Positions 17,730 to 63,325 of a stretch of DNA of 64,000 bases are shown here, piece by piece. The stretch's first letter is position 1, and every line of letters begins with the position of its first letter. A model generated the notes under the pieces. That model was given only the letters and a program-made list of their open reading frames with translations. It was not told where the DNA came from and did no database searches. Source of the stretch: Margaritifera margaritifera (taxonomy: Eukaryota > Mollusca > Bivalvia > Unionida > Margaritiferidae); assembly GCA_029931535.1 (NCBI GenBank), contig JAQPZY010001596.1:1242001-1306000 (forward strand), given 5' to 3'. A program made the translations under genes and the position numbers.

Positions 17730-18780
17730 AGGTCATATCGACAGGAAATTCTTAGTCGAACCCATGAAACTCCCTTGGCTGGTCATTTAGGAGTCAATAA
17801 GACTTATAACAAGATCTTGAATTATTTTTATTGTCCGAAATTTAAAAGTGATGTTTTTAAAAAATGTGGATCTTGTCACACTTGTCAAATGGTAGGAAAA
17901 CCCAATCAGAAGATACCTGAGGCTGATCTGCAACCTATTCTGCATTTGACGAACCATTTAGTAGAATAATGGAGTACTGTCTCGGTCCCTTACCTAAGAC
18001 CAAGTCGGGCAACCAATGCTTGTTGACCATCATGTGTGCGTCCACAAGATTTCCAGAGGCAATTCCTTTGAGAAATATTAAAACAAAAACCATTGTAATA
18101 GCTTTGGTAGTTTTTTTTTCTACACTTGTTGGCCTTCAAAAATCTGTCCAATCTGATCAAGGGTCAAATTTGATGTCTGGAATTTTCCAACAAGTTATGC
18201 ATGAGTTAGCCATCCAGCAGTTTAAATCTTCTGCCTATCACCCTGAAAGTCAAGGTGCTTTGGAAAGATTTCATCAAACTTTGAAGAATTATGGTTTGAT
18301 ACAGGAAAACATTGGGATGAGGGTGTTCATTTGTTGTTGTTTGCTGTCAGAGAATCATTTCAAGAATCAATGGATTTTAGTTCTTTTGAACTGGTTTTTG
18401 GACATACTGTCCGTGGACCATTGAAGTTATTGATTCAGAGATTAATCTTCTTGACTATGTATCTGATTTAAAATATATGTTGTCAAAGGCTTGTGAAGTA
18501 GCAAGAACTAATCTTCACTCCCCTCAGTTAAAAATTAAATTAAGGTATGACAGAAACACGCAGGAAAGGAGTTTTAAGCCTGGTGATAAAGTTCTGGCTC
18601 TCTTTCCCATACCTAAAAATCCTCTTCGGGCTAAATTTGATGTTCCTTATACAATTGAAAAGAAAGTAAATGACTTAAATTATATCATTAACACTCTTGG
18701 TAGGCGGAAACAGAAAAAAACTTTGTCAAATAATTGTGTTAAAGGAGTATTTTGACAGAGATAACACAGTTAATTATTCA
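17730..18780 (+). pseudogene. Ty3/gypsy integrase remnant (HHCC, core, C-terminal)
   Basis: Integrase inserts the cDNA copy. The zinc-binding domain spans two frames: THETPLAGHLG with two His, then CGSCHTC with two Cys near 17865-17885. The core reads CLGPLPKTKSGNQ, ASTRFPEAIPLRN, VQSDQGSN (second Asp) and HPESQGALERFHQ (catalytic Glu). Where family members have Asp directly before CVGPLP, this copy has Tyr (TAC at about 17975). After a frameshift near 18320 an AVRESFQ and FELVFGHTVRGPLKLL segment follows in another frame, then a C-terminal domain (18477-18755) with FKPGDKVLALFPIP. This gene lies before reverse transcriptase, unlike most Ty3/gypsy elements. Confidence 0.85.
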
Positions 18781-19584
18781 ATCAGTTTAGTTGTACCTGT
18801 CCCACACAGTGTTGATGTAAACGATGGAATGCAATCTGTCCGTAGTGACTGGTTTAACCAAACTTCAGAATTCAGAAATATTAAACAATCTGGACCAGAA
18901 ACTTTCACATCTACAACAACAGGATAGGAATGAACTAAAACAGCTATTACTTGAGTATCAGCACTTGTTTCCTGATGTTCCAACACGAACAAATAACATC
19001 TATAATGACGTTGACATTGTAGATTCTACACCTGTGAAACGACATCCTTACAGGATTAATCCTCTTAAACGGGAATATTTAAAAAAGAAATTCAGTATTT
19101 ACTTGAGAATGACTTTATAGAACCAAGTAAAAGTAACTGGAGTTCACCACGTATTCTTGCGCCTAAACCAGATAATGCATTCCGCATGTGTACTGACTAT
19201 AGAAAAATCAACAGTGTCACCAAAATGGATTCATTTCCAATGCCAAGAATAGATGATTGCATTGATAAAATTGGAAATGCAAAATATGTCACCAAGTTTG
19301 ACCTTTTAAAAGGATTCTGGCACATTCCACTAACGGAAAGAGCAAAAGATAGACTTTATCAGTATAAAGTGATATCTTTTGGAATGAAAAATTCTCCGGC
19401 AACATTCCAACGTCTTATGAATTTGTTAACATCTGCTCTAGATAATCGTGACGCGTACATCGATGACGTCACTATCTACAACGACACCAGGGAAGATCAC
19501 TTTGAAACCATTCGGAAATTCTTCGATCGACTCAGTGATGCAAATCTGACGGTTAATTTATGCAAAAAGTGAGTTTTGCCATCT
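18781..19584 (+). pseudogene. Ty3/gypsy reverse transcriptase remnant, truncated at its 3' end
   Basis: A linker (18824-19120, with HLFPDVPTRTN and HPYRINPLKREYLKK) leads into RT. One lost base at the A run near 19085 shifts the frame; RT then continues as ENDFIEPSKSNWSSPRIL, RMCTDYRKINSVTK, KFDLLKGFWHIPLTERAK, QYKVISFGMKNSPATFQRL and AYIDDVTIYND. The catalytic YIDD box is intact at 19456-19467. About eight residues (an ISAFVTPDG-like segment) are missing between TERAKD and LYQYK. The frame breaks at 19570, and similarity ends after SEFCH at about 19584, where foreign DNA begins. Normal members continue with a LTFLGH motif, which is absent here. Confidence 0.85.
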
Positions 19585-20503
19585 GACACGTCTGAAACGG
19601 CATGAGCATCTAGCGATTCTCCGCATTTATGTATGGTTACTGGTTCCATAATATAACTGTTGTCTTCAGACTCATCGGTATGTAAAATGTCAGTCACTTC
19701 ATCAAAACTCATACTGCAATTCAGTGAATCAGAATTATTAAATTATCTACCTCACTTTTGACAGATTCTTCACATCCATGGTCAATAGACCCCAAATATT
19801 CGTCATCCAATGACCGAGACTCGTACTTATTTTTGGTAATCGATTCGCCAGATACCAAATAACATGTCTGTTCCATATCATCATTATTATACGTCAAAGG
19901 GCTCTTCGACTTAAATTTCACATTGACTACAGGGACAAAGTGGTTTACAGCATACCAAGATCGTTGCTTTGGGAGTTGCCCTTGTGCATACCAGAGAATG
20001 CTGTTTGTTGAATGTCTTACTGGCACGTCTACAGAAAGTTCGAAAGTCGTGTTCAAAGATGCGTGTGCCAAGTCGTTCACGCCATTGACCGAAGGGTACA
20101 ATATCCGCACCGAACGCTGGATAATGTCAATTTTAGCACAGTCAATACAGGTAGCTTCAAAAGATGGTGATAAACATTGTATGCTCTTCCGATGGGGATG
20201 ATTCATGTACAGTGTTGCAGTGCGTACCATACGAAGGCAGATAGCGTAACTGTACTGATTTGCTTTAGTCTCCATAGAGTAGAAGGGACACTGCATTGAA
20301 TAAGCAGTCGCCTTTACCTGTTGTGATTATAGGGTCACCACTCACTTCATCAAAATATTTAATCATCAGTTCCTTTGCAACAGCATCCACTCTGATGGGC
20401 GGTGAAACAACCTCTCTGTCACATACTGGTTTGAACTGAATTTTAAAAGAGTCTCACGTTGGACTGCTGTTGTTAACTTCGCCGGGACCTTCGTATCGAC
20501 TGC
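19585..20503 (-). pseudogene. Vertnin/OTU-like gene fragment inserted in the retrotransposon
   Basis: Minus-strand coding remnant lying inside the gypsy pol. A putative 3' splice site (CTTACAG before GCA, exon start at 20503) opens it. The first frame gives KVPAKLTTAVQRETLL; after a shift it reads VDAVAKELMIKYFDE, then GKGDCLFNAVSLLLYGD with the OTU-style Asp-Cys (about 20318-20286). A stop replaces the next codon, and after another shift the 191-codon frame 20296-19721 reads LRMVRTATLYMNHP, SILWYAQGQLPKQRSWYAVNHFVPVV, with a His where OTU proteases and vertnin-like proteins have one, and an acidic tail. A further frame (19712 to about 19585) continues as DEVTDILHTDESEDNS. The stop and frameshifts indicate a pseudogene. 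Vertnin versus another OTU-like family is not resolved. Confidence 0.65.
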
Positions 20504-21984
20504 CTGTAAGCAAACGATTAATTTTTCAGGGAGCAGACACAAGTGAAAAACAAAGGACAAACCAACTTATAAGTCAATGAAAAGAAACATAATTTTTTCT
20601 CACGTCAGTATCACCATGAGGAGTCACTGCCGGACTCTTATGATATCAAATCTGCTCTTGAAAAATATTGTCTGGCGCAGAAAAGAAGCGCGCAAAACAA
20701 ACTGAATAATTTATTCCATCAATAGGAGACTTTTGAAAGTTATGAAACGTAAAATTCAACAAGCATAAAAATCATGCATGTTCTCTATAAAAGAGTAAAC
20801 AACCTGCACGTTCCAATAGATTTACATATCACGCAGTTCCACCTACTTAGTCTATATGGATGTGAAGTTTGGGGGTTTGAAAATGTTCACACCGAATTAC
20901 TAAGACCTATTAAGATTATGTTCTGATTAAATAACTATTGTACTGTGATCTATTTTTATGTACAATGTGCGGGATATGGTATTATTGATATTTTTAATGA
21001 TCTACCAGTAATTCGTGCTGTTCCACGATCGCGCGTGACCATAATCCGATTATAATTAAGTGACAGCTTTGAGGTTTAGATATGCCCTTAAATTGATTCG
21101 TAATATGTAAGGCAAAGTTTTATTTCATCACGATAATATATTGCCATTTTTTTAGCTTCAATTGTGCGGTAGCTTTTGTTTCCTCCTCTCATTTATTTTC
21201 AGGGATCGGGTTAGGGTTAGATGCACGCTTTCTAGACATCTCAAATGAGGATTCGATGAACGATTTTGTAAACAAGTAGCACAATGACTAGGGAATTGTG
21301 AGGAATGACTTAAACAAATTTGCCTGTTATATACTTCACGACATGGTCAGTTAATTATCATCTTAAATGGACACAATTGTTGCAAATAAAATAAAAAAGG
21401 TGTAAGTTTCACATCATCAAACAATTCATTATTTGTCCTTGTTTTAGCGGTATCTTTTTAGGCGGCATGATTACTGAAAGACCATCAAAGCAATATTTGT
21501 CAGTACATAATAATTATAGGATTAAGATAATTAACATTTACCAGTTTGTCACGATCATTGCAATATGGTGAATTTCCGGGTTATTGTCGGCCTTTAATTT
21601 AAAATTTCTTTATCAGTCCTTTATCAGTCCTGTTTACTAGGTGTTTGTTATGCATTTTCATGCTGTAATTAATCATTTAAAATAAGTGAAACGTTTATTA
21701 ATCTTTGTCTGTTTATTTATTAATAACAGAAGATTAAAGTCTAAAGATATACGACTCGTAAATTACGTTTGTATTTATATATCAACCAAACACAGGAACG
21801 TCGACTTTTAATGAAGAAAAAATTCGTGGGACTGGGGAGTGCGTTGCAATTTAGAGACGAGACGGTAGACTCCATAAGATTTCGTATATTTGGTTTGGAT
21901 ATGGGTGGATTTGATGTGGCTTTGGGTGGATTTGGGTGTTTCGTAACATCGCTTTGAATTCCCCGTACTTGGTAGCAAATACCA
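20504..21984. other. Remainder of the DNA interrupting the gypsy element
   Basis: No gene recognised. It starts with the putative intron upstream (on the minus strand) of the vertnin/OTU-like exon. The rest is AT-rich non-coding sequence. A short run with repeated GGTGGATTTG phrases lies at 21904-21940. I found no terminal inverted repeat or target-site duplication defining a transposon that could have carried the insert. Confidence 0.5.
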
Positions 21985-22540
21985 GCTGATGAGATTCTTA
22001 GGTATGGATGGATGTTATCGGATATTTTGCTCAAATTTTTCAATAATTGCTGAGCCTCTGACAAATTTGTTGAGTAAGAAATCCAAGTTTCATTGGTTTG
22101 ACAAATGTCAGGAATATTTTGACAAATTAAAGGCTATACTTGAGAGTGCACTAGTTCTTTCAGCACCAAATTTCAGCCAATTTTTTAAAATGTATGTTGA
22201 TGCAAGTGATGTAGGGGTTGGTGGAGTATTGATTCAAGAAGATACAAATGGTGTGGATCATCCAGCGTGCTATTTTGCTAAACAATTAAACAAACACCAG
22301 CAAAATTATTCCACAATTGATAAAGAATGTTTGGCTTTGATATTGGCTTTGCAACATTTTGAAGTGTATATCAGTTCAGTTCTTTCTCCGATTGTTGTAT
22401 CCCCTTATTTTCGTTAAACAAATAAAAAATAAAAATTAAGGATTGTTGAGGTGGAGTTTAATGCTGCAATAATACAACATTGAAATTCGATCAGGGGGAA
22501 AGATAATATGATTGCAGATGCACTCTCACGTGTATCGAAG
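21985..22540 (+). pseudogene. Ty3/gypsy RNase H remnant
   Basis: Similarity to pol resumes at LMRFLGMDGCYRIFC, followed by FSIIAEPLTNLLSKKSKF, then RNase H with YVDASDVGVGGVLIQED (first Asp) and STIDKECLALILALQHFEVY (Glu). After SPIVV the SDHNP motif that carries the third acidic residue is deleted. A second frame gives GLLRWSLML after a stop, and a third gives MIADALSRV, the usual end of this domain. The frame closes near 22575. RNase H normally removes the RNA strand during reverse transcription. About 36 codons of the RT-connection region are missing relative to the expected protein. Confidence 0.85.
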
Positions 22541-39954: not shown

Positions 39955-40664
39955 GTGTCTTACACATGGATACAAAAATGTACATTGCATCCACTAGGGG
40001 GACTTGTCAACTGGATGTAAAGCTGTCATCCACACAAGTTATGCGCGTGTTACATATGGATAAATATAGGATTGCTGGATATCCACTAGTATTTTTCAGA
40101 TTTGCCAAGAAAAAGCTTGATGACTGGTCATTTTTTTGTGGAGTGCTGCATGTGTGCTATGCACCAGAATATGAGAGTGTTTAGGAGACCAGAGAGAAGC
40201 TTCAGGAATGAAGGAAAGTCATTGCTGCAAAAACCAGGCAGTATGGTAATGACTAGACTTTTTATGAATATCTATTTTTGGCTAATCAGTGTTAACAGAT
40301 AACACTGGTCTACAATTTTTTAGAAGTCGTCTGCTTCAGAGATAAAATGTGCTATTTATTAGGGATTTTGATGTGCGGAATTCAAATATGACAATTAAAA
40401 CAACTGATTGGATACTGTTTCCAAGATATTTAAGTTTTTTACATTTTACGTCTATGTATATTGTGTACATAGTAGACTTTTAATCATAAATTGTAAACCT
40501 AGGTCTTTTCATGTGTTTATGGTTGCTTTACATGATAATATTTCACCTGTCCTATTTATGTAACACTTTCAAAAACAGCAAAAGGGTTATATAAATAAAA
40601 AATATATTGAAACAAAAGTCAAAAAACTATTATGTATATATAAGTACATAGTTTAGTCCTTATT
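39955..40664. other. Intergenic DNA
   Basis: No gene recognised; short open frames at 39966-40302 lack support. Confidence 0.5.
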
Positions 40665-42311
40665 CAGTATCTACTCGGCGCTTCTTGGCTTGTCTCTTGT
40701 ATTCATTAAATGGAGCATCTCTTGTCACTGTCCAGGAAATAGTCTGCAAGCATTGATGGGCTCCATTTGCCCTGATAGTGTTTCTCCATTGTTGCAATGT
40801 CCTGGTGAAATCACTCGCCGTGCTCGTCGCTCACTGCTCCGCAGCTCGGTGAAAAAAAATCTAGATGAGAGTGCAAAAAATGTATCTTTAGTGACATGTT
40901 GCAATTAAGTTTTTTATATGACTTGAGGAGGTTTTCCACCAACTCCCTGTAGTTGTCTGCCTTGTTGTTTCTGAGAAAATGTGTTGCCAATAACTAGAAG
41001 GCTTTCCATGCCGTCTTTTCCTTGCCACGCAGTGCACGGTGAAATGCATCATCTTGAAGAAGTTCACGAATCCGAGGACCAACAAAGACACCTTCCTTTA
41101 TCTTAGCTTCACTTTACCTTGGAAATTTTCCATGGAGGTACTTGAAAGCTGCTTGTGTTTTGTCCATGGCCTTGACAAAGTTCTTCATCAGACCCAGCTT
41201 GATGTGCAAGAGTGGTAACAAAATCTTCCTTGATTCAACAAGTGGTGGATGCTTAACACTTTTCATCTTAGGCTCCAATGACTGTCAGAGTGGCCAATCT
41301 CTCTTGATGTAGTGGGAATCTCTAGCACGACTATCCCAAGCAAGAGAGCAAGAGCCTTGAAATCGCCACAAAGCTGCCACTGATGTTGGTCATAGTTTAT
41401 GCACCTCAAAAGTTGTTTCATGTTTTCATAGGTTTCCTTCATATGGACTGCATGACCAACTGGAATTGATGGCAAAACACTGCCATTATGCAGCAAAACA
41501 GCTTTAAGACTCGTCTTCGATGAATCAATGAACAGTCTCCACTCATCTGGATCATGAACGATGTTGAGGGCTGCCATCACACCATCGATGATGTTGCAGG
41601 CTACAAGATCACCTTCCATGAAGAAGAATGGGACAAGATCCTTTTGACGGTCACGGAACATGGAAACCCTAACATCACCTGCCAGGAGATTCCACTACTG
41701 TAGTCTGGAGCCCAACAGCTCTGCCTTACTCTTGGGTATTTCCAAATCCCTGACAAGGTCATTCAGTTCACCTTGTGTTTTATAAGGTGTGGTTCAGAGG
41801 AGGAGGATGGGAGAAAATATGGGTCATGTGACATTGATGGTACAGGACTAGAAGTTTCATCCTCTTCCTCTTCCTTGTCTGACTCAAGTGAGAATGATTC
41901 TGGTGCATCAGGAACTGGCAGTCCTTTTCCGTGGGGTACTGGGCATATAGCTGAAGGAATGTTTGGATAATGCACAGTCCACTTTTTCTTCTTTGACACA
42001 CCTTTCCCAACTGGAGGCACCACGCAGAAGTAACAATTGCTGATATGATCTGTTGGCTGTCTCCAAATCATTGGCACTGCAAAAGGCATAGATTTCCTTT
42101 TCCTGTTCAACCACTGGCGAAGATTTGTTGCACAAGTATTGCAGCATATGTGTGGGGCAGACCTCTTGTCCTGATCTCCAATTTTGCAGCCAAAATAAAG
42201 GCGATATGCTTTTTTAACCATAGTGGTTATACTGCACTTTTGTGATGCAAAAGTCACTTCACCGCAAACATAGCAGAAGTTATCTGCATTGTTCACACAA
42301 GTACGAGGCAT
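40665..42311 (-). pseudogene. Cys-rich N-terminus protein of unknown function, pseudogene
   Basis: Minus-strand, apparently intronless. The N-terminal frame (42311-41763, 182 codons) starts MPRTCVNNADNFCYVCGE, with further Cys pairs CCNTC and CYFC that suggest a ZAD-like zinc-binding fold, then HYPNIPSAICPVPHG and an acidic Ser/Glu tail. The next frame (41661-41263) reads DPDEWRLFIDSSKTSLKAVLLHNGS, GHAVHMKETYENMKQLL and QLCGDFKALALLLG. After a deletion the reading continues as SRARDSHYIKRDWPL, HPPLVESRKILLPLLHIKLG, KAMDKTQAAFKYL, HFLHSHLDFF and CGAVSDEHGE, ending RRVDTE near 40665. At least four stops and two frame changes are present. I recall similar unnamed proteins in hydrozoans, arthropods and echinoderms, often multicopy; the function is unknown and a mobile origin is possible. 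Confidence 0.7.
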
Positions 42312-45300
42312 GTCTGCTCACTTTGGATAAACAGAAATATGTCCCTTTGAAAAATCAAACACAGACAAATAAGAGAGCGTGACAGTGTATGATTTGTAGA
42401 GCTGATATAGGGCAATTTCTTCAGCAGAGTGGTGTAAGCTTAGTTATGATTGCATCATCCATGACTTATAGGAATAACATCATGCAATTCATATCATGTA
42501 TGATGCAATACCAGCTTCAGATTGCATCATTCCTTGCAAGTACTGTCCAAACCCAGTCATAGAGTTATTCATAGATCCAGTCAAAGATGTATTTTAGTCA
42601 TTTCTGGTTTAAATTGAGATCCCTTCCCTTTATAACTCACTTATCATCTGCCATTCCCGAGTCAAGGGTCGTATATACTGACCCAATATCATATCTTTAA
42701 AACTAGAGATAATCGACAATTTTAAGCATCATATTCGTTCTCAGTGACCCAAAATTAGTAAAGTTTGACAGCATTTATTACGGAAGCATTTTGGCTGTAG
42801 ACCAGTGTTATTGTTTCATTTTGGTGCAGGCATTACGGATCCCACTTTCCAAGACTTCAAGTGACTCAAAAGAACCTATTTTGATTCTGAAAAGGACTGT
42901 GCCCAATTGTACGTTAATCCAACAGCACACCATGCTCCTCAAAACGTGTGTACATTAACAGCATACTGAAAAGGGATAGTCAGGGATAAGGATATTGCTT
43001 AGAAAAAAGTGGTTTTGTTTGCATCGTGCATTCGTGCATCAAAACCACGCTTTTCACTATAGTCTGCATCTAGACCGTGGTCCACTAAATAATGATAATA
43101 AACACCTTTAAAAAATATTTTAAGTTGCCAACCGAAACGACATTACCTCTCATTGTAAATGCATAACTGTGCACCCCCCCACACACACACACACACAGGC
43201 ACATGCACACACATATATATGAGAAAATTAGTAATTCTCATTAATTAATCGCAATTTAATACTATCAATATAGCTTTATCGCAAGAAATTTAATGGGTGG
43301 CCATGGAATATATGGATTATGCAATGGATACGCCTAGCTTTAAAAAGTAGTCAAGCATTTTGGATGTACAAAAAAACTTGTTTCATCAATTAGTACCTAA
43401 ATAGTTCAGTGCAAGCTAGAAAAGGCATTGGCACATGCAGTCAGAAGTAATAATGCACTAGAAATAAGCAGTTGTTGTTCATATTATTACATTTACCGGC
43501 AATGCTTATAATGTTGTTAATAGAAGTATTACATTTATGGTTGATGTGTATTACTGTTACACTTGATGTGGTTTATCAAATTTATGGTTTATGTGGCTAA
43601 TTACATTTACGGTTGATGTGGTTCATTACATTTAAGGTTAAGGTTATAATATTAACAGGAGTGTATTACTTTTATGGATACAAATTACAGCTATTACATT
43701 AACCATAGTTTATTCAAGTTACTGGTTTCACAAACGTCTCTTCAAAACCAGGTAGCCCAGTGTCACCTTTGATCTGTACTGCCAGGTGAGGTTGGGATAT
43801 AGACAACACTGTCAAAACTCAGGTTTGTGAAGATATGCACAGGAGATTATAGGTCCTGTACACATGTTGGCAAATGTTCATTTGAGTACCTGTGGCACTT
43901 GCTAGCTGGCTGATTATACCTGTAATATTTTTGGGAAAAGTACTGATATTTACTAAACTAATTTAGTCTTGAAACCAACTGATTTATCTGAGAGAGATTA
44001 ATTTACATGATAGCTGTGAATCCATGAGAAATATGCACTTTTTTACATTGATAGAATCTTTCTTGTCCCAGGCAAGTCCTTAAGCTAAATCTTCATTGGC
44101 TTGATCGAGAATTTCATTTATCCTAGACATCTGCCATGGGATTTGCTCAGCCCTGAATTCATTCCTGTGTTAAATGCATGAATTATTGTTATATTCTTGA
44201 TTTGTGAAAGTTAGTTTCAAAATTCAACATGTCTAGCGTGGGTCTAAAGATGGAGAAGAAAAAAAAAAAATTCAGACTCCTGCAAAATTCTCAAAAACTT
44301 TCAATGAAAATGGACCGTGGAATGTATGGTGTACTCAGGCATGCAGTTTTGTTAGTACTGTTTCAGATGAAACAAGTATAAACATTAAAACAGACCTGGA
44401 AATTTGCTTTATTGAAAAAGTATTAAATATAAAGGACTGGATGGTGGGAAGTGGTAAAAATGTTTGGCAGAGGTTCATATATATATATATATACAATTGG
44501 CCTTTTGAAATGTAATAGCTTGTAAAGGCAACAATTGAACAAATAGCAATAATTGATTTTAACCAAACTTAGCATGTGGGTAATATTTTCACAGCATGCA
44601 AGTGCAATTATCTTTCTATCGATGACATCAGGGTTGAAGGACAAAGGCCATTACATATTTTTTAACTGCAGTTTATTCATGAACATGTTAGCTTAAATAT
44701 GTAAGAAAATATTATATATTTTTGTTCTGTTTGAGTTTTTTTTAAGAATATCTAATTAAGTTTTAATATATATGAGTTAAAATTAAAATATGAAGCAAAA
44801 ACGAACTTATCGTAGATATCGGATCAATTTCATTTTTTGGAGGGGAGAGGGTTGGGCAGTAGAGCATCAGTTCTTTTGAGGACTCTGTATGCAAATAATA
44901 CTTTTTCCATACGAACATATTTATCAGAAAATCAACATATTTCTAAATTTACTCCTAGAGAGTATTTTATAAAACTCTTGCATATTTGTCATGTATAAAT
45001 ATTTTTAGGTAAGTTAATGGGGTGCTTACAAATTTGTATTATTTAGATGTTATCACATATCTTTTGCGTTATTTAATATTATACTCACTTTCAATGATAT
45101 CCATGTGTTTTTATCTCGAAGAATCAGGAAAAAATCATTTAAAAAAAGTAGCAAGATGGAGTTAAATTAAATTGTTAGCATGAACAAGGAATGTAGGAGT
45201 TATTGTTCTGGTTAAACAGTGTCTCAAAATTCACTAAAGAACTGAAGTATTTTTGATCATATAATGTACAGGCAAAATGTCAGGGTCATACACAATGTGT

Positions 45301-45660
45301 TTTTATGCATGCAGTACATAGTCATTCATTTAAATGGCAACTCACAAACATTTTACCAGATAACAAAATTATAAATTCTAATTCATGCAGTATATAATTC
45401 CAGTTATTGGATGATCTTGATTCATTTTTTGTAAAAGAAAAATTTGATTTTTTCAGAAAATTTAATCTGTGTAATCAATGAGGGAAAACTCATAAAGCCC
45501 TGAGGAATTTAGGAGCTTAACTTCTCGATTATTGTGACGAAGAAGAGGATTGAGCTGAGGGTGTTTGTATTGCACAAAACCAGATACATTAGACATTAGT
45601 GCCAAGTTTTGTAGATAGTTTGAATTTCTAGAACCAATCTTCGCTTTACTTCTTTTTCAG
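42312..45660. other. Intergenic DNA, no gene recognised
   Basis: CA repeat at 43165-43200, a loose ~40-bp repeat around TTTATGGTTGATGTG at 43528-43640, and a short TA run at 44478-44494. One ~120-bp unit near 44520-44640 resembles units of the ~145-bp arrays (AACCAAACTTAGC). No open frame has family support. The last part should contain an intron ending at the 3' splice site at 45660. Confidence 0.6.
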
Positions 45661-45865
45661 GAATGTTCAAAAGATCATCTTATCTTGCACAGATAGACTA
45701 AAAGAACCTACATGAATATGAAAGACGCAATCCATGCCACAGAGCAAGTTTTTTAATTTATCACAAAGAAACATTCCAGCTGGAAAAGTTGAGCACTGTG
45801 ATCACAACCATTTTCCGTAATATGAAGTTATCTTACCAACGTACATCATCTACTAGTCCTTCAAA
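45661..45865 (+). other. Putative 5' untranslated exon of the NLR-like pseudogene
   Basis: A polypyrimidine tract and CAG end at 45660 (CTTTACTTCTTTTTCAG). The next 205 bases have no open frame and lead to an ATG at 45866 that opens the HEPN-like domain. The transcription start and earlier exons are not visible. Confidence 0.4.
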
Positions 45866-47790
45866 ATGGATGAAGAATCGTGTAATTGGTTTCGTTTTGC
45901 AAAACTTTTAGTGGATGTCGGAGGTGAAATTCTTCAGGAACCCTTTTCTGTTTATTTTCAAACCTCCAGTTTCATGCAATACCTGGCCTTCTGGCATGAG
46001 AGGATTTGGAATCCTGGGCAAATTAACTATTTGTCAAACATGCACAGTTCATTCCATCTGCAGCTAAGTGGTATTGATGCATCAAGTCAGAGATTTTTGG
46101 AACAATGATCAAGAGCTGGAAACCAGATCGCTTTGTGAAAACAATTTCTCAGCAGATAAATGAACTTGAAAAATGGGATTTGGAAATCAAAGACAAACTT
46201 TCATCAAGTCCTTCAAATTTACACAGTAATCTATCAGCCTGGTCTAAAGATGTACAACATGAAGTTTGTCGACTCCGATCCTTGTTCCAAACTCTCCATA
46301 AGTGGAACGATGATTTCCAAGACATACAAATGACACTCAATTAATTTTGTTGGATCTAATCAGGAAATATCAAGATCTGCTGACATCTTTTAAACATAGT
46401 CTTGTGGATCTGAAGAATCCTACTTTTCAGGATCTTCAATCCCTCGTCAATATTCTTCCGATTAATATACAACAGGTGTCACAGACTTGGCAACAAGAAT
46501 GGGCTGACTTCCTGTTATCATGGGAACAAAAACTTAACTCTCTTTTGAATTCATGGCAGCAGGCACAAGTTCAGAATACTACCAGCCAACAGGTGTTACA
46601 GAGCCTACTAAATGAGTTCTTTTCATGAACTCCCAAGACTTCGTGGAACCTGTCAGTATCAACTACAGAACTTCTTTGCATCTTGGCAGCAGGATTTGCA
46701 TGGATTGATCACCAGATGGTTACAGAAATTAGGGAGATCACCTGGGACTTCTGATAATGAGTTTCAAAACTTTGTAGACATCTGGGTGCAAGATTGCAAT
46801 AATCATCCAAACTATAAAATACAGAGATTTAAAGACTTTCTGTGTTCATTGCAATGTACACTCCGAGCTTTAAAGAGCAAGAAAATTTTGACAGAACCGC
46901 AGTTCTCCATCTTATACTCAACTCAGGGTTCCCCAAATCTAGAAGAATTTGATATCACACTTCTTACAGTATTGTTAAGGAATGTATGTTCTGTCTGTCC
47001 ACCTGAAATGGGTTGGCATGTAAATGACCATTCTGATGACGATATATGTACTGGTACAGATATTCATAGACTGAAAAGCTGCAGGAACAAATTTGTTGCT
47101 CATATTCCTACCTGGAGCTGTATTAGATGATTTCTGGGAAAAAGCTGAGGGATTCCTCCTTTGACTGGCATCCAGATGTGGAAGTAGCTTTGGAACAGAG
47201 ATCAGAAAGTAAACACTTTGAAGGTTGGACCAATTAATCAACAGCAAGAGGAACGCTACAAACTACAATTGAGCATGTGGCGTAAAAGTTACCTTGTAGA
47301 TGAAATTTCAGAGATGTCTTCCAAAAATCAGGCAACATTGTATCAGCATGGTAGAAACTTTACAGGATGCTGTACAGAACCTACAGTGTGTATTTACACA
47401 ATTTATCGACATGCAGAAGTCAGCGCTTGACACAGTTCACTATGATAATTCATGCGCCATGAATAAATATGCGCATCTGAAATAGTTATGCCGCCACCAT
47501 ACCTACAGCTAAGGCATATAGTGTTACCTATGTCCATCCATTTGGTTTATGAGTCCAATGCTCAACAAACTGGGATATTGCGGCTCCCTCAAAGTGAAAG
47601 ACAGATGCTACATTCGTTCAGTTGGAAAAGTGAAAATTTAATAAAGATTTTCATAGAATATAGGTGTTCACACAATTTATTTTATGAAGTTGTTCAAAAC
47701 TTACATTGTGAGAAGAGAAGAATCTTTGTGACAGACAATATAGATGGACTTAAATGTTCCCTTCATGATGACCCTCGATCTTTGAAATAG
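45866..47790 (+). pseudogene. NLR-like gene, part 1: DZIP3-like HEPN domain split by a helical region
   Basis: Starts MDEESCNWFRFAKLLVDVGGEIL, the usual opening of DZIP3-like HEPN domains. After HLQLSGIDASSQ the frame breaks, and ~800 bp of helical, Trp/Gln-rich sequence follows (WQQEWADFLLSWEQKL, LLNSWQQ, FFASWQQDLHGLI). HEPN then resumes as EPQFSILYSTQGSP, EFDITLLTVLLRNVC, ...GTDIHRLKSCRNKFVAHIP, with the RxxxxxH motif at 47083-47103. In other families this motif is typical of HEPN RNases. Frame changes occur near 46100, 46340, 46615 (T run), 47125 and 47300, with a TGA near 47155. A downstream helical segment (VETLQDAVQNLQ) and an unassigned frame 47488-47790 follow. N-terminal HEPN domains in bivalve NLR-like proteins probably act as effector or adaptor modules; that role is inferred. 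Confidence 0.72.
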
Positions 47791-49183
47791 AGTATACAGG
47801 TGTGTGACTATTGGTGTCATGATATTTTTACTCCAATATACATCATGGCTATAGGATGTGTCACATACCGTCCTCACGCATCCCAACTCAAAGGTAAAAG
47901 ACACATCCAGAGAAAGTGTAACTGTGACCTGCTACATAGTGCTTCCTGAAACTTATGAACTACATGATATATTTTAATGCACCTTTACCTAGATATACAT
48001 CTTGAATGGGCACTATAGTTCCACAGTCAAACCAAAGCTCCTCATACAAGTCATGGCTGATTAGTATTGTAGTTACCACGATAATGCCCCTCAATACAAG
48101 CCAAATATTATATGTACAGATGAACCAGTTTGCACAACTCGCCAATATCAAAAGACAGCCAGCTTATGTGACAGGCCTGTGATGAATAGGGAATGAAAAT
48201 GGGCTTTGTTTGCTTATTGCTAGGTACAGATGAACTGAAACTTCGCCTACATTTACCGACAAGTTTGAAGTTATTGAATACCCCTGACCCTAATGAAAAG
48301 GGATGTAATGAGTATCTCTCAAAGATGAACTTTTTTTATCAAAGAAAGCTTTAATTCACAGGCAAATAGATGAAGATATCGAACTATACCTGTCACACTA
48401 ACACAAATGGTGACTTTCATTTCTGCTGCAACAACACGACTGATTTTCCCACCATCCAGCAAACGAATTGCTTCGACACTTTCCACAAAGGATAAAAACC
48501 GCCTAGCTTTTGAATTTGACATATTGGCACCTTTGAGTTACATTGCGAGTGTGACTGGAGCATGATGATTACCAGCGAAAAAAGAAATATTATCACATGA
48601 TATATGCCATTCGCTCCAGTGGCCGCTTAAAAGAGTGAGAAACCATTAATTGGTTAGGAAAACACCTGACTGCTGACCGTGGAAAGGAGCCGACCGTTAT
48701 ATAAATGGCTTTTATATAGGAAATTTGCCTGGATAGAGGAGGGGGGATTAAAATGGCTGTTGTGACCATGTGACCACTATATAAAGGTGACCGCTTGTAC
48801 AAGTTTCAATGTAATTTAATTTTGCATCAGATAGGTATAGATTTAGTGCTATTGTATTCAAAGTGGTACCCAGAGTGTTGTCACCTTGTTGCCAGTAGAT
48901 TGCAGGATAGACCTTCTTTCCATTATGTTGCCAGAACAGATTGACAATTAAAGTACCAAGCCCAATCTATTGTCAGTGTCTTGTGTATATGTATATAAAA
49001 AGATTATGTAAGTAATTGACACATGGATCATAAAAGGGCCCTTATGAACTAGTTTATGGTATTTTCTGTATAAAGAGATATAAAGCACTGAACTCATATA
49101 TTTTGCTAAAACAAAAATTAAACAGAATTCAATAAATAAATAAGCGATATTTAATTATTCGTTTTATTGGTTATATTTTTCAG
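47791..49183. other. Putative intron of the NLR-like pseudogene
   Basis: No collinear coding sequence. It ends in TTATATTTTTCAG at 49183. A donor such as ACAG/GTGTGT near 47808 is possible but unproven. It holds a Tigger fragment (48330-48811). Confidence 0.45.
48330..48811 (-). mobile_element. Tigger/pogo-like transposon 5' fragment
   Basis: On the minus strand the element starts CATTGAAACTTGTACAAG, next to TA at 48812-48813, with a 5' UTR rich in GGTCACC and AGTGGTCACATGG text typical of pogo/Tigger ends. An ATG at 48522 opens MSNSKARRFLSF, VEAIRLLDGGK, SRVVAAEMKV, an N-terminal helix-turn-helix of the CENP-B/pogo type. The transposase stops after ~50 residues. No DDE catalytic domain or second end is present, so the copy is truncated. 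Confidence 0.6.
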
Positions 49184-50740
49184 ATCTGACCAATATACAA
49201 AAATTATTGATGAAGTCTTATCAGGATCTACAAACAGTTCAGATCAACCCAGTATTTGCAGATACGGTTGGAAGTATTGAGGAGGAAGATAACGAAGAAA
49301 TACAAGATATAAGACGTGAGGTACTTACAAAGAAGTTACCGATACATAGTTTTAGGCAGTTATTTCATAAAGGTAATATGAGAGTAAATCGCATTGTATT
49401 AAAAGCTGCAGCAGGTCTGGGTAAATCCACCTTTTGTAGAAAACTTTTACAAATCTGGTGCCTATTTCAAAATAGTAGGTTGAACAATTGCACAGAAATG
49501 ATTAAGCCATCATCACAAACATCATTAAATGAAATGGAAGATGGTGATGTGATGCTGATGTTTGACATCCTATTATACATCAATCTTGGAGCAATCACAA
49601 ATGAGAAAGATTTCGTAGATTTAATCTACACACAAATCCCAATCCTGAAATCAACACCAAAACCATAAAAAAATAACCTCCTAAATATGATGGAGGTTGG
49701 GGACAACAAAATCCTGCTTATCCTAGATGGGCTAGATGAGATGGACGTGTCTGCATCTTACATTGAACAAATACTGAAACGAACATTGTACCCTACCATG
49801 GCAGTCCTTGTATCTTCCTAAACCTGGAAAATTGGACAATTGCAGCTCACCCAGACTGTTCACATTGACTTACTGGTAGATGTACAAGGATTTAGCTATG
49901 AGAAGAGTATGCTTTTTGCTATGAAAATTTAGAACATTATGGAGAAAAATCCGCTATAGAACAATTTAGAAATGACGTGAATAATAGCAGTGTGATTGAA
50001 AATCTTGTCCATGTACCTCCTCTCGTGTTGTTTTTGGTTCATGTTTGGTATAAGAAGAAGTCCTTCCCGGATAGTGTTTTTCTTTTGTATCTGGATATGC
50101 TGGACGTAATGGTAGATAGGTACAAAGAACAAAAGAGATAATATAGGTACAGCTGATGTACCATTCAATTTGCAGGTAGAAGAGTCTCATTTACTGTTGA
50201 AAGAGTTTCCAAATCTAGAGGAACTATCAATCACTAACAGTTTGGGTGAAGAGTTCTTGTTAGTTCTATTTGATATTGCAAATCATTTCTTGTTTGGAGA
50301 AAAACAAGAAAACTCTCTTGTTTTTGAGGAAAAAGTTCTTCTCAAATTGCTTGGAAAAGATGGCAAATCCAAGTTGCAGGTAGCTTTAGATATTGATCTT
50401 CTATCCAAACAAAATTATACAGCTGCTGGAGAATTTACAAGAAAAGTTTGTCTCAGTTTTCCTCATAAGACTATTCAAGAATTGCTAGCTGCCATTTATT
50501 TATGTTGCTCAGAGAGTAAATTTTCTCAATTTCTCAACCAGTTGAAGACATATGATGACGTGCTGCAAAGTGAGATAACTATTGTGTTTATAGCGGGCGT
50601 TTCTTCACAAAAATGTGAGGCAATATTTGAAAACATAATTGAAGCCTGTGATGATCAGAATGTCTATGAAAACCTACACAAGACCCCCTTACTTTGGTGT
50701 TCTCTACCTACCTCTTATGCAAGTTGTACAGGAACTGTGT
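49184..50740 (+). pseudogene. NLR-like gene, part 2: NACHT ATPase module
   Basis: The exon opens after the 3' splice site at 49183 with SDLTNIQKLLMKSYQDL. The NACHT P-loop reads VLKAAAGLGKSTF (49405-49431), with the first Gly of GxxGxGKST replaced by Ala. Walker B reads ILLILDGLDEMD (49711-49743). In-frame stops interrupt at 49666 and 49818; the second falls where NACHT proteins usually have Arg before a Pro/Thr-Trp. After a frame change near 49925, ENLVHVPPLVLFLVHVWY and DMLDVMVDRYKEQK form the helical and winged-helix part. A stop at 50140 and then 50170-50742 give FLFGEKQENSLVFEE and FPHKTIQELLAAIYL, the usual pre-LRR segment. In family members NACHT binds nucleotide and drives oligomerisation in cytosolic sensing; this copy cannot be translated through. 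Confidence 0.82.
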
Positions 50741-52672
50741 AAGGGAGACTGGTGGAGACTGCACACACTTCAGACTAAAGCATATGCATGTTGGCAGTTT
50801 ACAGGAATTCAATACTATTTTTTCCAGTATTAAGAGCGTTACAGATCTTAGGTCTCTTATTCTGGAGAACATTAATTTTACATCATTCCGATGTAAAGCA
50901 CAGTTGGGCATTTCAAAATGTGATAATCTGAAATATTTGGCACTGAGAAATATTCAACTGGATCATGTTAATCTAAATCTGCCAGTATGTCCTGGACTGT
51001 TAGGAATTCGGCTTGTGGATATAGCTATGTCTAGTGAAAGTGCTGTGCAGCTGTCTAATAGTCTGTCACAGTGTACACAGCTACAGCAGCTGACACTGAA
51101 GAATGTAAACTGTGTTGATGGTAAACTAGATATATAAGGGGCTTCCGGTTTGCCTACATGCACTCTGTACAAAGGGAGTATGCCAAGTATCAGTCTGCCA
51201 CAGTATACACAGCTACAGCACCTGAGACTGGAGAAGGTTAACCTAGGTGAAGGTAACCTGGATATATCGAGAGCTTACCGTTTTTCTATACTCTCTCTGA
51301 CTAATGTCACCATGTCCAGTATCAGTTTATTACAGTGTGCACAGTTACATATGTTAGTACTGCTGAATGTTAACCTAGCTGATGGTATCCTGGACATATC
51401 AGGGGCTTCCTGCCTGTCTGAACTCAGTTTGCATAATGTTAATATGTCCAGTATCAGATTGTCACAGTGTACAAAGCTACAGACACTGCAACTAGAGAAT
51501 GTTATTACTCTGGGTGATAATAAACTGCATTTATCAGGAGCTTTCCCTCTGTCTAAACTCTGGCTTGATAATGTGACTCTAACCAGTATGAGTCTGTCAC
51601 AGTGTCCACAGGTACAGGAGCTAACAATGAAGAGTGTTAACCTTGGACCTATCAGGAGCTTCCTCTCTGTCTAAACTAAGGCTTCACAATGTGACCATGT
51701 GCATTATTGGTCTATCACAGTGTACACAGCTACATAAACTGCAACTAGAAAATGTTTATCTAGATAATGGTATCAGGGGCTTCCTGTCTGTCTAAACTCA
51801 GACTGAACAATGTGATGATATCTAGTATTAGTCTATCACTCTGTAAACAAGTACAAACACTGCAGCTAGACAATGTAAATCTAGTTGATGTTAAACTGGA
51901 CCTGTCAGGAACTTCCTGTCTGTCTAAGATCTGGCTTGATAATATGCCTATTTCCAGTATCAGTCTGTCAGAGTGTACGCAGCTACATAAGCTGAAAATT
52001 ATGAATGTTAATATTAGTAATGGTGAGCTGGACCTATCAGGGGCATTCTGTCTATATAAACTCAGGGTGAATAATGTAATTCTGTCCAACGAGGGTGCTG
52101 TGCTTCTATGTAACAGTCTTTCACAGTGTACCCAGCTGCAGAAGCTTAGACTGGAGAAAGTGAATCCAGGTAATTGTACACTGAGTCTATCAAAAGTGCC
52201 ATGTCTGTCTGAACTCTGCCTGGAAAATGTGGCTATTTCCAGTTTAAGACTGTTACAGTGTACACAGCTGCATCGGTTGATACTGGAGAATGTTAACCTA
52301 GGTGATGGTAAACTGGACATATCAAGAGCTTCATGTCTATCTGAACTCACTCTTTACAAGGTGACTCTGTCTAATGAGAGTTCTGCACAGTTGTGTAACA
52401 GTCTGTCACTTGATGACAGACAGTTGAAGTGGTTTAGCCTTGAGGATGTGGATCTAGGAGATGCCTTACTCGACATAAACAATCTACCGACAAAAATTGA
52501 CCTTGACATGCACAATGTTACAGTTTCTTACGAGTGTGCTGATCTGCTTCAGGCCTCACTATGTGTCAGAGGTATAGAAATAGTGTTCATAGACCTTACT
52601 TCACCTGAAAGAGGGAGATTTACATGTTTCTGTCATGCAAAAGCAGACTCGGATTTAAATTATGAATTGTGA
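50741..52672 (+). pseudogene. NLR-like gene, part 3: divergent leucine-rich repeats
   Basis: About eleven repeats of 44-47 residues, each two LRR halves: LSQCTQLQ.LxLENVNLGDGKLDIS followed by GASCLSELxLxNVTMSSIS. They occupy frames at 50694-51137, 51150-51674 and 51767-52672. Breaks are a TCA-to-TAA change at 51135 (DI-stop-GAS), and short deletions near 51642 and 51770 that remove the same part of the unit. The protein ends ERGRFTCFCHAKADSDLNYEL at 52672. An LRR array normally senses ligand or restrains NACHT. A polyadenylation signal is not obvious just downstream (AATAAA near 52705 is a candidate). Minus-strand frames here are shadows. Confidence 0.82.
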
Positions 52673-63057: not shown

Positions 63058-63325
63058 ATGTTTTATCTGAAGCAGAGTCTTGTTGATCTGAAGAATCCTA
63101 CTTTTAACGATCTTCAGTCTCTTGTTAGCACTCTTCCAAATAATATCCAGAAGGCATCACAGACTTGGTTACAGGAGTGTAAAGACTTCCTCACAACATG
63201 GGAACAGAAACTTCAGTGTCTTTTGAATTCCTGGCAGCAGACACAATGTCAGAATACTACCAATCAACAGGTCTTACATGATCTTGTAAAGGATTTTATG
63301 AAAGAACTCCCAAATCTGCATGTCA
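63058..63325 (+). pseudogene. Partial second copy of the NLR-like helical region
   Basis: Reads QSLVDLKNPTFNDLQSLV, SQTWLQECKDFLTTWEQKL, LLNSWQQTQCQNTTNQQVL and KDFMKELPNL. This matches the helical insert of the first copy (46389-46640) residue for residue over ~85 positions. Here the frame is open across the site where the first copy has an extra T (46615). Similarity starts near 63060 and stops after KELPNLH, so this is one exon or a truncated duplicate; the following TA repeat and unrelated DNA carry no more of the gene. It could belong to a gene continuing past the window. Confidence 0.75.

Follow-up and report, generated by a model that had tools for sequence, protein, structure and literature searches.

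Within a 64-kb window of the Margaritifera margaritifera genome (C623:1242001-1306000; the window is the whole stretch that was analysed, and positions are counted from its first letter unless a contig is named), the forward-strand locus at 45661-52672 carries a DZIP3-like HEPN exon followed by a single further exon, which combines NACHT motifs with a helical region and paired LRRs. The copy is broken throughout, and two questions arise at once: what was this gene, and was it ever a single gene?

Results

The HEPN exon (45661-47444, +) follows an acceptor AG at 45659-45660 and is read as a short 5′ untranslated stretch, an ATG at 45866, a helical spacer, and the DZIP3-like HEPN domain. The reading frame 46612-47130 matches PF18738 (HEPN_DZIP3) with E 3.8e-21 and 75.8 bits, above the curated cut-off of 27; the match, which was also recovered in the genome search, spans 46831-47109 (+) and profile positions 5-96. 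Its translation includes CRNKFVAHI, and hence, at 47083-47103 (+), the R-x5-H motif RNKFVAH, which satisfies the Rx4-6H motif as defined in a passage of PMC9646362. Queried with the window HEPN, a protein database yielded seven candidates, none at E <= 0.001.

The end of this exon, 47444, was set by eye at a GT that stands in phase 1 in both relatives (two of two) and is absent from the window. This donor assignment is weak: when 47401-49100 was scanned for donors of the GTAAG/GTGAG type, the three that turned up all lay elsewhere, and the same scan near the end of the HEPN exon of C1469, its nearest HEPN relative, found none, the C1469 frame being open beyond the proposed site. The putative intron (47445-49183, +) ends in TTTTTCAG at 49183 and contains, at about 48123-48806, a dispersed repeat with copies near C623:1323165-1323846 and in C969. 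The stretch 47542-47592 has short matches of 84-88% identity on five other contigs and is likewise part of a dispersed repeat. The acceptor of the NACHT exon at 49184 is in phase 1, and the two exons of the window fit each other, phase 1 to phase 1, both by eye. We reject a processed (intronless) copy, because HEPN and NACHT are separated by a gap that looks like an intron and ends in an acceptor.

Between C623:1335330 and 1339630 there are stretches that three pieces of the window, at 40278-42812, match with 89-93% identity; these stretches are missing from the corresponding intron of C969, and they are probably a mobile element. Open frames at 17927-22414, LLTIMCASTRFPEAIPLRN and FRMCTDYRKINSVT for example, look retroelement-like by eye. 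An Rfam scan of the window at gathering thresholds gave no matches.

The second exon (49184-52672, +) holds NACHT, helical, and LRR regions in that order. The P-loop KAAAGLGKST (49402-49431, +) and the Walker B ILLILDGLDEMD (49711-49746, +) were read by eye from the translation. Against PF05729 (NACHT), the broken pieces of the window stay below the cut-off of 26.7: the piece that includes Walker B, 49669-49821, scores 18.8 bits (E 0.0015), and 49144-49668 scores 13 bits (E 0.093). The same cut-off is passed, with 49.1 bits (E 7.3e-13), by P0001, which represents NACHT in an open relative and shares 49% identity with the NACHT stretch of the window. There is a weak NLRC4_HD2 match (E 0.0016), and a PDB sequence search with P0001 returned one sequence, NLRP6 (E 0.0039).

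The LRR array (51026-52672, +) consists of a 132-bp unit, which encodes a 44-residue double LRR, and a C-terminal part, as judged from Tandem Repeats Finder (period 132 bp, 7.2 copies), alignment, and a structure model. None of the Pfam LRR models scored above its cut-off with the LRR piece of the window; the array of a relative was scored by LRR_4 and LRR_EndoS. A single-sequence AlphaFold2 model of 51764-52672 has a pLDDT of 76.7 and a pTM of 0.77, and a Foldseek search with it gave SDS22, internalins, TLR2, and NLRC4 among the matches (best E 5.9e-5), with modest query-normalised TM-scores of about 0.2-0.5 in the best 50 of 469 rows. The 132-bp unit and the model both indicate a C-terminal LRR solenoid.

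How badly is the copy damaged? The window copy lacks an open reading frame: frameshift-aware alignment against relatives from the same genome counts about 15 frameshifts and in-frame stops, seven in HEPN, five in NACHT, and three in the LRRs. In the HEPN part there are six frameshifts and one stop against C1469, and four and one against C623:1306500-1307592, a shorter reference that spans only 46392-47443 of the window. The NACHT part has three frameshifts and two stops with three of four references and three and three with the fourth; the LRR count depends on the reference, being two frameshifts and one stop or one and one. Controls, in which relative was aligned with relative, cover the NACHT and HEPN parts, not the LRRs: all three NACHT controls gave no frameshifts and no stops over 627-653 aligned codons each, and the single HEPN control gave no frameshifts. 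Multi-codon gaps were left out of the damage count, because the controls show them as well. The domain order, motifs, and LRR unit that the preliminary description had read here all hold up, as does its dozen or so frame breaks; HEPN and NACHT are both detected in the one locus, HEPN by a profile match above cut-off and NACHT through its motifs and weak profile pieces, so that the first of the refutations offered by that description did not come about.

The copy has many relatives. A search of the 2,453,371,941-base assembly (1,696 contigs) found at least 150 matches to PF18738 (150 scored of 201 candidates) and at least 72 to the NACHT query P0001 (68 scored of 221 candidates), the latter merged into 62 loci. 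Both lists are lower bounds; a HEPN piece found by DNA similarity, C1647:904923, is missing from the first. The nearest NACHT-LRR relatives at the DNA level are C329 (80%), C1647, C623:1340153 and C969 (70%), and in all four the NACHT frame is open. By eye, the frames of C623:1339939-1347333 and C1647 are open through the LRRs, C329 has one in-frame stop within them, and the C969 frame ends early in the LRR part, beyond which DNA similarity continues, so that C969 looks like a gene with a break near its end. The nearest HEPN relative, C1469, is 77% identical and has a 537-residue frame; C623:1306500-1307592 (74%) lies on the opposite strand directly beyond the end of the window, and C1647:904923 (71%) lies on the same strand as the C1647 NACHT, some 170 kb upstream of it. 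The expectation that intact relatives would lie nearby was therefore sound: an open NACHT-LRR exon, C623:1339939-1347333, begins 34 kb beyond the end of the window, and a HEPN reading frame, C623:1306500-1307592, lies closer still. Within the window, at 63058-63318 (+), DNA similarity identifies a separate fragment of a related HEPN gene (the helical spacer part); since it aligns with the beginning of the longer copy C623:1306500-1307592 (−), we read the two as a partial inverted duplication. Elsewhere, C1696:1853403-1866514 is a tandem array of six HEPN_DZIP3 matches about 2.55 kb apart, with one in-frame TGA in five of the six.

The open exon C623:1339939-1347333, which lies outside the window, has a 2,465-residue frame and an LRR array of 39.7 copies with 90% matches according to Tandem Repeats Finder, which counts 8.7 copies in C969, 19.4 in C329, and 7.2 in the window. 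As assembled, this array, with 39 alike LRR units that vary mainly at exposed strand positions, as against about nine units in the sister C969, is the most unusual feature that we have met. Despite the difference in array length, dS between the NACHT parts of C969 and C623:1339939-1347333 is only 0.12. The array has 39 unit starts, and 35 of its units have 44 residues, 18 of these being distinct. Seven positions vary by at least 1 bit, and six of the seven are exposed positions of LxxLxLxx, the LRR consensus (hypergeometric 1.9e-4, post hoc); the corresponding figures, also post hoc, are four of seven for C969 (0.037) and three of six for C329 (0.12). When 300-bp segments of the array are compared at lags of 645, 1569, and 2214 bp, some prove 100% identical, and those at least 99% identical number 8 of 85, 6 of 67, and 17 of 54 at the three lags, respectively. 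Because identity is complete at several lags, the array suggests either recent internal duplication or an assembly fault in the repeat.

Discussion

Domains, order, strand, and breaks of the locus can be read directly. Whether the two exons ever served one transcript is another matter, and here the rest of the genome is informative. The window HEPN and NACHT matches lie on the same strand, 2.06 kb apart. Three of the 62 merged NACHT loci (the window itself, C14, and C105) have HEPN at most 10 kb upstream on their own strand, as against a random expectation of 0.019, and each of the other three arrangements within 10 kb is found at none of the 62. Wider limits add one downstream, opposite-strand pair within 20 kb and one upstream, opposite-strand pair within 50 kb. 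Both of these are on C623. Upstream pairs on the same strand come to four within 100 kb and five within 300 kb. At C14:1487800-1494600, a HEPN exon (E 3e-28) is followed by a small exon and by NACHT (E 5.8e-14); read by eye, the donor of the HEPN exon and the two acceptors stand in phase 1. The C14 locus is by our reading a HEPN-NACHT-LRR gene of another subfamily, its LRRs being interrupted by one in-frame stop. The breaks in the window copy are distributed across both halves, and dS to the nearest relative is alike in the two (HEPN 0.514 to C1469, NACHT 0.495 to C329). Because of the genome-wide pairing and the by-eye fit of the intron phases, we consider it likely, if by no means certain, that the locus is a pseudogene of one NLR-like gene composed of a HEPN exon and a NACHT-LRR exon.

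One might instead imagine a pair of neighbouring pseudogenes, one from a gene with HEPN only and one from a NACHT-LRR gene, that were juxtaposed by tandem duplication or rearrangement, in a cluster with members of both families, and never shared a transcript. The closest relatives of each half do stand without the other half nearby: no relative of the window HEPN was found within 28.4 kb upstream of NACHT in C1647, 28.7 kb in C329 and C969, or 39.9 kb in C623:1339939, with the one exception of the copy that lies some 33 kb upstream of C623:1339939 on the opposite strand, and nearly 8 kb downstream of C1469 holds no NACHT match. (By eye, the frames downstream of C1469 resemble a mobile element.) The cluster also contains HEPN pieces that are broken and inverted, 63058-63318 (+) and C623:1306500-1307592 (−), and these, with the want of a consensus donor at the end of the HEPN exon, point the same way. 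The shared strand, the spacing of about 2 kb, the intron phases, and the restriction of pairs within 10 kb to the upstream, same-strand arrangement speak against two genes, and we hold that account to be unlikely. The proposal in the preliminary description of a single HEPN-NACHT-LRR gene is, then, favoured by spacing, phases, and pairing, and finds no echo in the closest relatives of either half. Since no close relative that we examined carries both halves, exon shuffling may have put the gene together as a local chimera, in the cluster where both families occur. A first exon common to the NACHT-LRR relatives did not emerge: the upstream DNA that C623:1339939-1347333, C969, and C329 have in common is without a convincing reading frame by eye.

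The breaks themselves could be blamed on the assembly, or on a null allele in one animal, with the gene whole elsewhere. PacBio CLR reads are indel-prone. Should this be the Margaritifera margaritifera V2 assembly, the genome was built from such reads and polished afterwards, according to a passage of PMC10189783. The same assembly, however, yields relatives free of breaks in all three NACHT controls (627-653 codons each), and the window carries four in-frame stops besides its frameshifts. The in-frame stop of C329 and the early end of the C969 frame limit this counterargument, other members not all being perfect, and even so we find it very improbable that the gene is whole elsewhere. The single decayed gene remains our reading, and the locus is probably what is left of an animal immune-sensor gene in which an RNA-cutting-type domain, a switch, and a leucine-rich sensor were once joined.

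How might the intact gene have worked? Its first coding exon would have encoded the DZIP3-like HEPN domain at the N-terminus, together with a long helical spacer. Across an intron in phase 1, this exon would have been spliced, in a single transcript, to one large exon for NACHT, the helical region, and a solenoid of 44-residue double LRRs. By analogy with other NLRs, the LRRs would sense, NACHT would oligomerise upon nucleotide exchange, and the resulting clustering would activate the HEPN domain, probably as an RNase.

Vertebrate NLRs such as NLRC4 and NLRP6 have the same NACHT-LRR order and are very distant in sequence; we know of no N-terminal HEPN among them. In the pearl oyster P. fucata, a passage of PMC9646362 describes more than 50 NACHT proteins with N-terminal DZIP3-like HEPN, including tripartite NLR-like proteins with C-terminal LRR. 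These share with the window copy the N-terminal HEPN, the central NACHT, the Rx4-6H motif, and, in the tripartite ones, the C-terminal LRR; the window copy differs in being broken, and perhaps in the long helical spacer of its HEPN exon, and in this genome HEPN lies within 10 kb upstream at only the three of 62 NACHT loci, both lists being incomplete and their counts lower bounds. For the DZIP3/hRUL138 HEPN family, to which the window domain belongs, a passage of PMC3710099 names the NACHT ATPase and LRR among fusion partners, rather than their exact order in one protein, and reports an oyster expansion, all from other genomes; HEPN also occurs in other bivalve immune architectures, according to part of PMC8195603. 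The preliminary description drew attention to an RNase-type fold joined to an immune ATPase. HEPN does lie beside NACHT here, but the pairing was already on record in the passages of PMC3710099 and PMC9646362, and the RNase role would be by analogy. The HEPN-NACHT-LRR architecture is already known, and the window copy, a decayed member, is ordinary in itself, because the same design is known from the pearl oyster. Its worth is as a relic of the turnover of immune receptors in a bivalve and as a further case of HEPN beside NACHT-LRR.

The neighbouring array invites a larger thought. Fungal NLRs with high internal repeat conservation have WD, ANK, or TPR repeats, no LRR being found among them in the part of PMC4986451 on which we draw. 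They resemble C623:1339939-1347333 in their highly alike units, in length differences between relatives, and in variation at few positions; they differ in that the repeats here are animal LRRs, known from one assembly. In a non-exhaustive literature search, no title dealt with the turnover of LRR units among bivalve NLRs. We suggest, tentatively and as a possibility that we would not yet press, that recognition in this NACHT-LRR family is diversified as complete LRR units of 132 bp turn over in frame, while its effector changes with phase-1 first exons that can be swapped, HEPN included. If that is true, the family would be the animal equivalent, built on LRRs, of those fungal NLRs whose repeats are highly conserved. 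Should the array prove genuine and differ from animal to animal, one could ask directly whether an animal that has no antibodies builds sensor diversity through the turnover of LRR units.
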